NCBI RefSeq assembly: GCF_024267655.1
Contig: NZ_CP100595.1
Span: 930,001-994,000, forward strand
Source: Arcobacter roscoffensis
GTDB taxonomy: Bacteria > Campylobacterota > Campylobacteria > Campylobacterales > Arcobacteraceae
Direction of reading: 5' to 3'
DNA: 64,000 nt
Part shown: positions 18,284 to 24,683 of the stretch, one piece after another
How the letters are laid out: each line of letters begins with the position of its first letter
Position numbering within the stretch: the stretch's first letter is position 1
Translations under genes and position numbers: made by a program
The notes under the pieces: generated by a model
The model's input: only the letters and a program-made list of their open reading frames with translations
Databases searched by the model: none
Told to the model about the DNA's origin: nothing

Positions 18284-19564
18284 ATGAAACGAGATATCGT
18301 AATAATTGGTGGAGGTATTATTGGATTAATGAGTGCTTACTTTTTGCAAAAAGCTGGAAGAAAAGTAACTTTGATTGATGAAAATGATATTACAAATAGT
18401 ACCTCTTTTGGAAATGCTGGTTTATTGTCAGCTTTTGATAAAGCTCCTTTAAGTCATCCAGGTGTTGTGGGTGAGACAATAAAAATGATGATGAAGGGTG
18501 AATCACCTGTAAAACTTCATCCTAAATTTGATTATCAACTTATCAAATGGCTTTTATCATTTGTAAAAAATGCAAATGAAGAAAGGCTAAAAAAAACACT
18601 TATTCTTTTTGAGAAGTACGGACAAGATACTATTGATTTATATAAACAACTTCAAAAAGAAGAGGGTTTAGATTTTGATTTTCATCATACGGGTATGTTA
18701 TCTGTTTTTACAGAGCAAGACACCTATGATAAAAAGCTAAAACAATATAATTATGAAGATAGTAAAAGATTTGAGGTACTTACAAAAAGTAGACTTGAAG
18801 AGTATTTACCTTGTGCAAGTTCTGATGTAAAAGGGGCTATTTTATTTAAGAAAAATGCTCACTTAGATCCTCAAAGAGTTATGCTTGAAATGAAAAGATA
18901 CCTTATGGAAAATGGTGTTGAGTTTATTTTAAATGAGAAAATTGAAGATATTAGCTTTAGCGATGATAAAGTAATTAGCGTTAGTTCAAAAAGTGCTACA
19001 TATGAAGCAAATACCTTTATAATGGCTACAGGATATCAAACACTTCTTGCAAAAAGAAGAAAAAAGCAACTGCTTATGACACCGGCAAAGGGTTATAGTA
19101 TAACTTTTGAAATGCCAGAAGAGTTACGTCCTAAAACTTCTTGTTTATTCAATGATTTATTTATTGTGATGACACCAAGAAGAGGTGATGTAAGACTTAC
19201 TTCAAAATTAGAATTAGGTTCTTCAAATCCTGCTATTGTAAAAGCTCAAATAGATAGTATAAAAGAAAATTTTAAAAAGTACACAAAACCTTTTGAAATG
19301 AAAAATATCAAAGAGTGGAGTGGTTTTAGACCCTTAACACCAAATGATAGACCATTGTTTGGAAAAGATGAAGAGTATGACAATCTTGTATATGCTATGG
19401 GGCTTGGGTGGCTTGGTATGACATTTGCTCCAAGTATTGCTAAAACACTTGAAAATCTAATAGTAAATGATTTAAAAAATGAAGAAGATGATGATGTTCT
19501 TCTTTTCTCTGGATTCTACCAAGGGGAGAGTCCAAAGAAGCATTTGTTTTGTCTTATAAATTAG
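18284..19564 (+). CDS. DadA-like FAD-dependent D-amino-acid dehydrogenase
   Basis: 426 residues. The N-terminal Rossmann motif DIVIIGGGIIGLMSAYFLQ and the TSFGNAGLLS stretch identify the DAO/DadA family; WSGFRPLTPNDRPLFG and GLGWLGMTFAPSIA are the C-terminal FAD-contacting motifs. Predicted to oxidise D-amino acids (D-Ala being the likeliest) to the oxo acid plus ammonia, feeding electrons to the membrane chain. Own promoter likely (TATAAT 18206-18211). The tail overlaps the convergent small gene by 11 bases. Glycine oxidase or another family member cannot be excluded. Confidence 0.8.
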   Translation: MKRDIVIIGGGIIGLMSAYFLQKAGRKVTLIDENDITNSTSFGNAGLLSAFDKAPLSHPGVVGETIKMMMKGESPVKLHPKFDYQLIKWLLSFVKNANEERLKKTLILFEKYGQDTIDLYKQLQKEEGLDFDFHHTGMLSVFTEQDTYDKKLKQYNYEDSKRFEVLTKSRLEEYLPCASSDVKGAILFKKNAHLDPQRVMLEMKRYLMENGVEFILNEKIEDISFSDDKVISVSSKSATYEANTFIMATGYQTLLAKRRKKQLLMTPAKGYSITFEMPEELRPKTSCLFNDLFIVMTPRRGDVRLTSKLELGSSNPAIVKAQIDSIKENFKKYTKPFEMKNIKEWSGFRPLTPNDRPLFGKDEEYDNLVYAMGLGWLGMTFAPSIAKTLENLIVNDLKNEEDDDVLLFSGFYQGESPKKHLFCLIN

Positions 19565-20054
19565 AAGTATAAGCTTGTAATTTCTCTCTTACATCTGGAC
19601 TTTGAGTTTGTTCATTTATTTTGTCCATCATATTTGCAAAAGATGAAAGCTTATTTTCACCTGTACTATTTGCTGTTTCATTAGTTATACTAAATAAAGC
19701 AGCTGCATAGTTTGCATCAGTAGTTATATCATTTTGTGTATTTAAAACTTGTTCTTGCAGATTTAAGTTATTTAAGCCACTATCTCCTAGAAAATTACTA
19801 AAATCTTCTCTTGAAATATTTCCATTTCTTAGTTCATCAAGATTAAATAAAAAATCTTGCTGTAAAGCTTGTGTTTGTATATTGTCTTGTGCTACTGCAT
19901 CAATATTTACAACACTTGCATCACCTATTTCACGAGGTGGAGCAACTTGATCTACTGGATCTGGTGTTTCAAAGCTAGGGCTTGAAGGTTGTATGGATAT
20001 ATCAGCATAATCAGGTATATCTAAACCATAACTGTCAATTGATGAAATATTCAT
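19554..20054 (-). CDS. Hypothetical acidic protein, unrecognised
   Basis: 166 residues from the ATG at 20054, which sits nine bases after AAGGGAG; the TTG at 20063 directly abuts that site and was not chosen. Gln/Asn/Ser/Asp-rich, mostly disordered N-terminus with prolines, then predicted short helices (NISREDFSNFLGDSG reads like an EF-hand-like or calcium-loop helix but is not complete). No membrane segment or signal peptide. Transcribed against the DadA-like gene with an 11-base overlap of the ends. Function unknown. Confidence 0.65.
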   Translation of the reverse strand: MNISSIDSYGLDIPDYADISIQPSSPSFETPDPVDQVAPPREIGDASVVNIDAVAQDNIQTQALQQDFLFNLDELRNGNISREDFSNFLGDSGLNNLNLQEQVLNTQNDITTDANYAAALFSITNETANSTGENKLSSFANMMDKINEQTQSPDVREKLQAYTSNL

Positions 20055-20203
20055 AATAATCAACTCCCTTCATATATTATATGTATTAATTATATCATCC
20101 AAAAGTAAATGAAATGTATAGAAACTGTAAAGTTTTAATAAAAATTAGCTTAAATATTTAATTTAATAAAGGAATTTAAAGTATGAAAAGATAAGATACC
20201 AAC

Positions 20204-22564: not shown

Positions 22565-23656
22565 TTGCAAAATCAAATTGAACAGAGAATCTCAAGAGTT
22601 AAGTCCTCTCTTATAATAGAACAACCATATTTTGGCTCAATAGCTTCAAGTCAAAAGGCTGTTTTAAATGAGGATTTAAAAACATATCTTTCAACTAGTA
22701 CAAACTTTGAATATAATGATGATTATATAAACTCATTAAGTGATGAAGAGTTAAGTTTTGTACTAACAAACTCAGCAATGCATCAAGCATTTTTGCATGA
22801 TAAAAGAGTAGATTTAAGAATGCAATGGCTTTGGGTTTTAGCAACAGATTATGCAATAAATTGTTTACTTGTAAACAATGGCTTAGAACTTCCAGATGGT
22901 GTAAACTATGATGAAAGATTTGATGATATGAGTGCAGAGGCTATTTATGCTGCACTTGAAAATGAAATAGATGATGATAAACACACTCCTGAACAAGTTT
23001 CACAAATAAAGTTTGAAAAACAGTACGAACAAGAAATAGATGATAATCAAGAAATACAAGATATGCATGAACAGCTTTTAAATAAAGCAAAACTTCAAGG
23101 TGATTTACCTCTAGGAATAGAAATACTTGTACCAAATCTATATGATGGAAAAATCTCTTGGGAAGATGAACTTTATAATATAATAGAGCAATCTGTAAGG
23201 TTTGATTATAAGTTAATACCTCCAAATAAAAGATATATTTCCCAAGGCATTGCTTTGCCATCGCTACAAGGTACAAAGGCTAAACTTGTGGTTTGTATAG
23301 ATAGTTCAGGTTCTATTGATGGAAAACTTTTATCTAGATTTTTAGCAGAAGTTGAATCTATCATGAATAGTTTTGAGAACTTTGAGATTGATTTATTAGT
23401 GGCTGATGCAAAGGTGCATGAACATCATATTTTATATGCTGGAGATGAACTATCTTACACTTTAAAAGGTGGAGGAGGAACTAACTTTGAAAATACTTTT
23501 AAATACATAGATGAAAATATTGATGAGGTAAATTTACTTTTATATTTTACTGATGGCTTTGGAAAGTTTCCCCAAGATGAGCCTTCATATGAAAGTGTTT
23601 GGGTTCTAAGTGAAGACATAGAAGTTCCTTTTGGAAGAAAACTTCTATTAATCTAA
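22565..23656 (+). CDS. VWA-domain protein with DUF2201-type N-terminus
   Basis: 363 residues from a TTG start three bases after the MoxR stop. The N-terminal half follows the DUF2201 metallopeptidase-like pattern (WVLATDYAINCLL, LPDGVNYDERFDDMSAEAIYAAL), but where the family has H-E-x2-H-x4-H this protein has N-S-A-M-H-Q-A-F-L-H, so the first His and catalytic Glu are gone. The C-terminal VWA-like half keeps the MIDAS: DSSGSID, GGGGTNF and FTDGFG. A metal-dependent adhesion/scaffold role with the MoxR ATPase is likely, while protease activity is doubtful. Confidence 0.82.
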   Translation: MQNQIEQRISRVKSSLIIEQPYFGSIASSQKAVLNEDLKTYLSTSTNFEYNDDYINSLSDEELSFVLTNSAMHQAFLHDKRVDLRMQWLWVLATDYAINCLLVNNGLELPDGVNYDERFDDMSAEAIYAALENEIDDDKHTPEQVSQIKFEKQYEQEIDDNQEIQDMHEQLLNKAKLQGDLPLGIEILVPNLYDGKISWEDELYNIIEQSVRFDYKLIPPNKRYISQGIALPSLQGTKAKLVVCIDSSGSIDGKLLSRFLAEVESIMNSFENFEIDLLVADAKVHEHHILYAGDELSYTLKGGGGTNFENTFKYIDENIDEVNLLLYFTDGFGKFPQDEPSYESVWVLSEDIEVPFGRKLLLI

Positions 23657-23677: not shown

Positions 23678-23800
23678 TTATGTTGTAAACAAATTGAAAA
23701 CAGGTATGTTTTTTTGCATATGCATAAGTAGAATAAGTGTGAAGGAAAAAACAGCTAATAAGAAGCTATTTTTCAATCCTTTTGTTATAAGTGTTCTCAT
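23678..23800 (-). CDS. 40-residue single-span membrane peptide downstream of a c-di-GMP riboswitch
   Basis: Uncalled small ORF: ATG at 23800, TAA at 23680-23678. RBS TAGGAG lies seven bases upstream. The product begins MRTLITKGLKNSFLLAVFSF and continues with TLILLMHMQKNIPVFNLFTT: a positively charged N-terminus, one hydrophobic span of about 17-19 residues and a short tail. No family is recognised. A perfect spacing of RBS, start and a GEMM-I aptamer about 95 bases upstream on the same strand supports a real gene under c-di-GMP control. Coding status is inference from these signals. Confidence 0.6.
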   Translation of the reverse strand: MRTLITKGLKNSFLLAVFSFTLILLMHMQKNIPVFNLFTT

Positions 23801-23895
23801 TTTTAATCTCCTAGAATATTCAAAGAAGTGTAGTTCGCGTATAACTTCTTCATTTTAATTCATAGTTTAGATTAAAATTGCCAATTGCATTGGTT

Positions 23896-23976
23896 GTATA
23901 AGAGTGTGCAATCCGGCTATCTTAAATCTAAGACCCGTGACTTTCCGTCCCTATCTCACAATAGGTTTGGCTATAC
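23896..23976 (-). promoter_or_regulatory. c-di-GMP-I (GEMM-I) riboswitch aptamer
   Basis: Read leftward, the conserved GEMM elements occur in order: GCCAAACC, a hairpin AACCTAT/ATAGG with loop TGTGAG, GGGACGGAAAG (consensus GGGACGCAAAG), ACGGGTCTTA, TTAAGATAGCCGG and GATTGC, with a possible closing P1 helix GTATA/TATAC at the two ends. The downstream leader holds three hairpins before the RBS: 23881-23893 (CCAAT/ATTGG), 23852-23878 (ATTTTAAT/ATTAAAAT) and 23823-23850 (AAGAAGT/ACTTCTT). None ends in a long U-run, so translational control is more likely than termination. Whether it prefers c-di-GMP or cGAMP is not determined. Confidence 0.88.
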
Positions 23977-23995
23977 TAATTTTATGTTATTTTTT

Positions 23996-24001
23996 ATTAT
24001 A
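23996..24001 (-). promoter_or_regulatory. -10 box (TATAAT) for the riboswitch transcript
   Basis: TATAAT on the minus strand, 19 bases before the aptamer's P1 helix. Transcription would start near 23988, placing the aptamer at the very 5' end of the mRNA. It lies after the stop of tetR, so the riboswitch transcript is separate from or additional to read-through from tetR. Confidence 0.5.
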
Positions 24002-24030: not shown

Positions 24031-24660
24031 TTATTTATTCATTTTCCTTATTAAGTCCTTGCCTTTTTGTGTTAAATTTGGGTAAATCATAAACTCAAAA
24101 AATACTTCTTTTGATTCTTGAAGTGTCTCTAAAGTCACATCTTCTATTGTAGAAACAAAGCTTTGCCAATAAGCTGTAATAAACCAGTGAAGTTTAGCTC
24201 TTTTGTTTAAAGAGCTTTTATTTAACTCTTTTATTAAACCTTCTTTTATAAGATATTTCAACAGACCTTCTATTTGTTTTATTCTTATTTCTTGATTTTG
24301 TGTAAAAGCTTTTTTTAGATTAGAATCCATAGCTATTAAAACTGTAGCATCTCTTAGTAAAAATCTATATTCAAAAAATAGTTTTGCATATTGATTAAAC
24401 ATCTCATCCATAGCCTCAAAAAAATTATCATGCATTAGCATTTTTTCAAAACTGTTTAGTTCTACAAAATTTAAACTAAGTTCTTTGTATAAATCAAGAA
24501 TTATCTCTTCTTTGTTTTTGTAGTGATAATAGAGATTACCTGGTGATATACCAGCTTGTTTGGCTATATGGTTTGTAGTAATACTTAATGAATTTTTTTC
24601 ATTGAAAAGTTTCATTGCAGATTGTTTTATTTTTGTTTTTGCATCAATTCTTTTTTTCAT
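24031..24660 (-). CDS. TetR family transcriptional regulator
   Basis: 209 residues from the ATG at 24660 (a TTG two codons earlier is possible; neither has a good RBS). The N-terminal HTH ITTNHIAKQAGISPGNLYYHYKNKEEI is typical of TetR, followed by an all-helical ligand domain of about 150 residues. The gene is divergent from the zinc-ribbon membrane protein, with a 9-bp-arm palindrome between them as candidate operator. The effector is unknown. Confidence 0.88.
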   Translation of the reverse strand: MKKRIDAKTKIKQSAMKLFNEKNSLSITTNHIAKQAGISPGNLYYHYKNKEEIILDLYKELSLNFVELNSFEKMLMHDNFFEAMDEMFNQYAKLFFEYRFLLRDATVLIAMDSNLKKAFTQNQEIRIKQIEGLLKYLIKEGLIKELNKSSLNKRAKLHWFITAYWQSFVSTIEDVTLETLQESKEVFFEFMIYPNLTQKGKDLIRKMNK

Positions 24661-24683
24661 GATCAATTATATCATCTTAGAGC

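Follow-up and report, generated by a model that had tools for sequence, protein, structure and literature searches.

In the 64,000-nucleotide stretch of the Arcobacter roscoffensis genome analysed here (the window), a c-di-GMP class I riboswitch lies ahead of a short open reading frame. Whichever the sign of the switch, we consider it likely that this riboswitch has a translated 40-residue membrane micro-protein as its sole target. As read from the genome sequences, small membrane proteins are the usual target of the c-di-GMP-I class in the Arcobacteraceae, in place of the large surface proteins found behind it in related families.

The aptamer was found on the minus strand at positions 23904-23981. 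The Rfam covariance model of the c-di-GMP-I (GEMM-I) class, RF01051, matched this region over its whole length (model positions 1-87) with 61.3 bits (E 1.5e-9), the gathering score being 35 bits. Thus, the GEMM-I aptamer that a preliminary description of this DNA had read from its motifs, all of them there and in the order stated, is genuine. A 66-nt stretch of it recurs without change in G091 and G095, which belong to another genus of the Arcobacteraceae, and was absent from the remaining genomes of the 104 searched, even with three mismatches allowed. In G091 the stretch occurs twice; the second copy stands before an operon of DUF1800 and TAT-signal DUF1501 genes, 4.3 kb from the micro-ORF copy (L030:4092-5850 = G091:C1:1090091-1091849). 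Model position 11, which we take to be equivalent to G20 of Vc2, is a G in the window aptamer and in those of its relatives, so that c-di-GMP rather than cGAMP is the predicted ligand. A20 is the mark of cGAMP in this riboswitch class (PMC6456294). Exactly two RF01051 sites were present in the genome of the window (3.15 Mb, one contig). Since 57 GGDEF matches were detected in the same genome, c-di-GMP signalling is very likely active in it.

Upstream of the aptamer, TATAAT at 23996-24001 (minus strand) is a probable -10 box. The gap of about 19 bases previously given between the two proved a fair middle value, as 14 nt separate the box from the start of the Rfam match and about 24 nt from GCCAAACC. 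In the relatives, CTAAAAT occupies the same alignment position. No -35 match was found for the window TATAAT, and a sigma-70 consensus scan did not list it, presumably because no -35 box is there. A degenerate aptamer pattern gave zero matches against viral contigs, and thus no sign of phage carriage.

The 40-codon ORF, MRTLITKGLKNSFLLAVFSFTLILLMHMQKNIPVFNLFTT, extends on the minus strand from an ATG at 23800 to 23678. An AGGAG at 23812-23808 precedes the ATG by 7 nt, which is the usual spacing, and direct reading of the leader alignment showed this ribosome-binding site (RBS) and its spacer ATTAAAA (23801-23812, minus strand) unchanged in all three leaders. The reading of an RBS-opened frame with one hydrophobic span was thereby upheld; the span covers residues 12-28 (Kyte-Doolittle mean 2.1). 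No Pfam or NCBIfam family was matched by the peptide at E <= 1. The micro-ORF is likely translated, and the peptide would be located in the inner membrane with its N-terminus inside. It may there be a small output of c-di-GMP signalling that probably works by binding to a partner in the membrane.

Alignment of the leaders highlighted two blocks conserved across genera outside the aptamer, TGCAATTGG..ATTTTAATCTA and AGGAGATTAAAAATGAGAACA. The first of these is predicted to pair with the aptamer 3' domain, at GCC(G)GATTGCA and TTAGATTTAAGA. From the cross-genus block and from folding, a switching strand, TGCAATTGGCAATTTTAATCTAA (23867-23889, minus strand), was recognized, which is complementary to the aptamer 3' domain and whose TTTTAATCT is complementary to the RBS and spacer, AGATTAAAA. 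The duplex of this strand with the aptamer 3' half reached -23.7 kcal/mol, a value attained by 1% of shuffles (p 0.01). Folding also indicated that the aptamer 3' strand GCCGGATTGCA (23907-23917, minus strand) can pair with the downstream TGCAATTGGC in a mutually exclusive fold. In computations that leave out ligand, kinetics and tertiary contacts, the unconstrained window leader replaced the aptamer by the long helix between the first block and the aptamer 3' domain, favoured by 2.9 kcal/mol, and aptamer-excluding folds were favoured by 6.9 and 8.3 kcal/mol in two relatives. The predicted energy of the aptamer-excluding hairpin was -9.9 kcal/mol in the window and -12.9 to -13.7 kcal/mol in three related leaders; the tract that follows it is AAUUUUAAU in the window and AUUUUAAU or GUUUUUAG elsewhere. 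Among these four leaders is that of a DUF1800 gene (L022), which shares GCAATTGGGC and a U tract, the rest of its platform being different. The hairpin has a long loop (17-22 nt across leaders) and, in the window, a weak U tract; it was not among the hits of a terminator scan limited to loops of 3-8 nt.

Three hairpins had been proposed as a possible expression platform. All of them can be drawn, and the location of the platform between aptamer and ORF holds, but only the third keeps its shape. This hairpin, AAGAAGT...ACTTCTT (23823-23850, minus strand), has changed pairs in the relatives, where 8-12 pairs of altered sequence give -5 to -9 kcal/mol. Hairpin 1 (CCAAT-GCA-ATTGG) has lost its 5' arm in the relatives; what is conserved is the 3' arm, which is able to pair with the aptamer. 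As far as alignment and folding can tell, what the platform conserves is a strand with complementarity to the 3' domain of the aptamer itself, and not three independent hairpins.

These elements can be arranged as an ON switch acting by transcription termination, of the type described for pilM of Geobacter metallireducens, an ON riboswitch in which aptamer and terminator are mutually exclusive (PMC9262584); we put the chances of this model at about even. Without c-di-GMP, TGCAATTGGC would pair with the aptamer strand GCCGGATTGCA, which would destroy the binding pocket and set a hairpin ahead of AATTTTAATCT, where transcription should be halted or slowed. With c-di-GMP, the aptamer would keep its own 3' strand, the hairpin would be blocked and the micro-protein would be made. 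As in pilM, a downstream strand is predicted to capture the 3' strand of the aptamer together with its ligand-pairing C. However, pilM senses cGAMP, the U tract of the window is weak, and the window strand also reaches the RBS.

The same strand could alternatively serve a translational OFF switch, in which the aptamer held by c-di-GMP would free TTTTAATCT to mask AGATTAAAA at the RBS, while the ligand-free aptamer would take the strand up and leave the RBS freer. This arrangement is possible, if somewhat doubtful. The perfect 9-nt complementarity between TTTTAATCT and AGATTAAAA is kept in all three leaders (p 0.01 in the window, 0.03 and 0.05 in the relatives, by shuffling), the aptamer pairing and the RBS match taken jointly giving p 0.002, 0.006 and 0.016, respectively; against this, U-rich and A-rich stretches pair readily in an AT-rich genome. 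When the folds of the window and of G095 were constrained to contain the aptamer, TTTTAATCT and AGATTAAAA were paired, and the aptamer-bound state lowered RBS access in other Arcobacteraceae leaders (L003, L004, L005, L007, L018, L019, L023 and L024). However, the computed access of the AGGAG core was nearly constant in the window (0.25 versus 0.23) and rose in G091, so that this quantity does not separate ON from OFF. The class I switches of C. difficile are reported to act in the OFF sense (PMC11477304).

G091 and G095 both carry a homologous ORF of 33 residues at this locus, MRTFKQGIKKSLLLTAFSIMLIVSMN(I/L)YAGILV, which is 45% identical to the window ORF. In both it lies downstream of a TetR gene, and in G091 it also adjoins a convergent DUF2201 operon. 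No internal stop interrupts the frame in either of these relatives, which keep the aptamer at the locus; conservation of the frame in such genomes had been named beforehand as a check on the ORF. A profile built from the three ORFs scored 75-82 bits against these three genomes and no higher than 21 bits elsewhere, the 21-bit match containing stops. More distant candidates among the 104 family genomes were short, and many had stops or lay inside longer frames; they were attributed to chance. One of the profile matches (L048) sits at the gene of a 471-residue multi-span protein and was rejected as a homologue.

The genera share the start of the ORF, a basic N-terminus and the hydrophobic span, but not the C-terminal tail. 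Omega was 0.67 for the window against G091 (33 codons), with a second value of 0.27, both from very few sites and three sequences in all. The value of 0.67 and the differing tails suggest that the peptide is weakly constrained. Between G091 and G095, identity amounted to 98% in the ORF, 87% in the leader and 76% in the upstream 100 nt; the ORF is thus held tighter than its flanks. From these comparisons, the micro-ORF is probably subject to weak selection.

The same observations bear on another explanation, according to which the micro-ORF is a relic, being what remains of the signal-peptide region of an exported gene since lost, and the riboswitch drives nothing useful. The lost gene might have belonged to a DUF1800/DUF1501 operon like that of G091. 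The ORF does resemble a signal peptide, its form in genus g19 having, by eye, an IYA|G-like cleavage site. The near-identical aptamer and leader core before the DUF1800 gene of G091, the lack of DUF1800 in the window genome and the omega of 0.67 are consistent with such a loss. However, frame, start context and hydrophobic span have been retained in two genera, the ORF of G091 and G095 has diverged less than its flanks, the 66-nt aptamer stays identical, and the association of riboswitch and micro-protein recurs in other genera with other protein families. We consider this explanation unlikely.

The 40-residue ORF is the sole same-strand target of the riboswitch. A convergent gene for a VWA-like DUF2201 protein (22565-23656, plus strand) has its end 22 nt beyond the stop of the ORF, which leaves the riboswitch transcript without another gene on its strand nearby. 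Membership of the ORF in a longer operon was ruled out, the next minus-strand gene being about 3.6 kb away with opposite-strand genes between. That the RNA itself is the product, as a c-di-GMP-controlled transcript running antisense into the convergent DUF2201/MoxR operon, is very improbable: only 22 nt without a listed minus-strand terminator separate the ORF stop from the convergent gene, and two c-di-GMP-I switches of C. difficile drive antitoxin RNAs (PMC11477304), but a good RBS and a conserved ORF would then be needless, and the 3' region is more diverged than the ORF.

On the other side, a TetR-family regulator gene (24031-24666, minus strand; Pfam TetR) lies outside the riboswitch unit. 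By synteny it is the upstream neighbour of the riboswitch in all three genomes, one gene intervening in G095, and no GEMM motif was found beside TetR homologues elsewhere in the family. Elsewhere in the window (19554-20063), a 169-residue protein with no family match adjoins the gene of an FAD-dependent oxidase (DAO family), and the same pair was observed at L030:2169-2672. In G054, a protein resembling the 169-residue one directly follows the TetR gene, so that the window block between TetR and the 169-residue gene looks inserted or rearranged.

In the Arcobacteraceae, RF01051 matched 28 sites in 19 of 104 genomes. The first gene behind each site was assigned by a rule requiring a Shine-Dalgarno sequence and a start codon, and not from the annotation. 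By this rule, 22 of the 28 sites, in 7 of the 8 riboswitch-bearing genera, precede a membrane protein of at most 90 residues with one or two hydrophobic spans: six Tad-like pilins and sixteen micro-proteins belonging to several unrelated families. The Tad-like pilins (62-65 residues; genera g1, g8, g9 and g19) are pilin-like by their neighbours A24 peptidase, T2SSE and T2SSF in the window genome. The micro-proteins comprise the window family (33-40 residues; g1 and g19), a family grouped by eye with one C-terminal span and a (C/K)xWSF-like motif (55-60 residues; g7, g8 and g20), a family with an N-terminal span and a YWxGGKF-like end (79-84 residues; g12), and a two-span family with F(I/V)WS and LNI motifs (68-80 residues; g9). 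The remaining targets are flagellin-like, a DUF1800/DUF1501 operon, an exported-looking protein of 133 residues behind tandem aptamers, and two others of 187 and 215 residues.

In other Campylobacterales families, all 20 sampled readable sites precede proteins of at least 135 residues, many with signal-peptide-like starts. The contrast in small targets, 22 of 27 distinct first genes against 0 of 20, corresponds to a Fisher p of 9e-9, in a comparison where genomes of the same genus are not independent and the outgroup sites are the best-scoring ones. A riboswitch is linked to 6 of 7 members of the two-span family, and to the YWxGGKF family and the window family in 3 of 3 genomes each. We would give slightly less than an even chance to a broader proposal, that in the Arcobacteraceae the c-di-GMP-I riboswitch has become specialized in the control of membrane micro-proteins. 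Unrelated families of 33-84 residues with one or two spans, that of the window included, would each be a c-di-GMP output in its own right, gained with the riboswitch and nearly never found without it.

Aptamers were also observed in other settings. In G050 (C18:5383-5837; L007, L021 and L028), three c-di-GMP-I aptamers occur within 460 bp, a tandem pair ahead of the 133-residue exported-looking protein and a divergent one ahead of a flagellin-like gene. On a contig labelled Gammaproteobacteria (L039), a GEMM-I aptamer is followed by a frame of more than 2,200 codons; its 3' strand and the adjacent downstream sequence make up a GC-rich, near-perfect hairpin, a clear aptamer-excluding fold.

The second riboswitch of the window genome (G000:C1:2842246-2842321) is of the same class and its target is likewise a short one-span protein (64 residues). 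By its context (A24 prepilin peptidase, T2SSE and T2SSF) this protein is a Tad-like pilin, outside the micro-ORF family. The riboswitch and its Tad-like pilin cluster lie at L029:5972-6322 (G000:C1:2841971-2842321), and the pairing recurs in g8, g9 and g19.

Compared with the RF01051 class, the window aptamer differs in nothing; the difference lies in the target, which is a micro-protein and not a large gene of surface or motility function. The preliminary description had taken a small protein as sole target to be new, which cannot be maintained: several of the 12 class I switches of C. difficile precede small hypothetical proteins of about 58 residues (PMC11477304), and such targets are usual in the Arcobacteraceae. 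The two cases share the riboswitch class and a small target of unassigned function, a likeness of size and class, whereas C. difficile belongs to another phylum and its proteins are longer. Among the papers searchable, none was found that joins Arcobacter with the phrase 'c-di-GMP riboswitch', and the three terms Arcobacter, c-di-GMP and riboswitch come together in just one, a general survey of ncRNAs. The aptamer is an ordinary c-di-GMP-I member; for the family-wide preference for membrane micro-proteins, no earlier description was found among these papers.

With short leaders, short ORFs and a single ligand, the system is directly testable, and the riboswitch is a good pointer to real tiny ORFs. 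Searches for c-di-GMP outputs usually turn to large genes of the surface, pilus and flagellum. If most targets in this family are indeed membrane micro-proteins easily missed by gene callers, its c-di-GMP outputs would be partly hidden.
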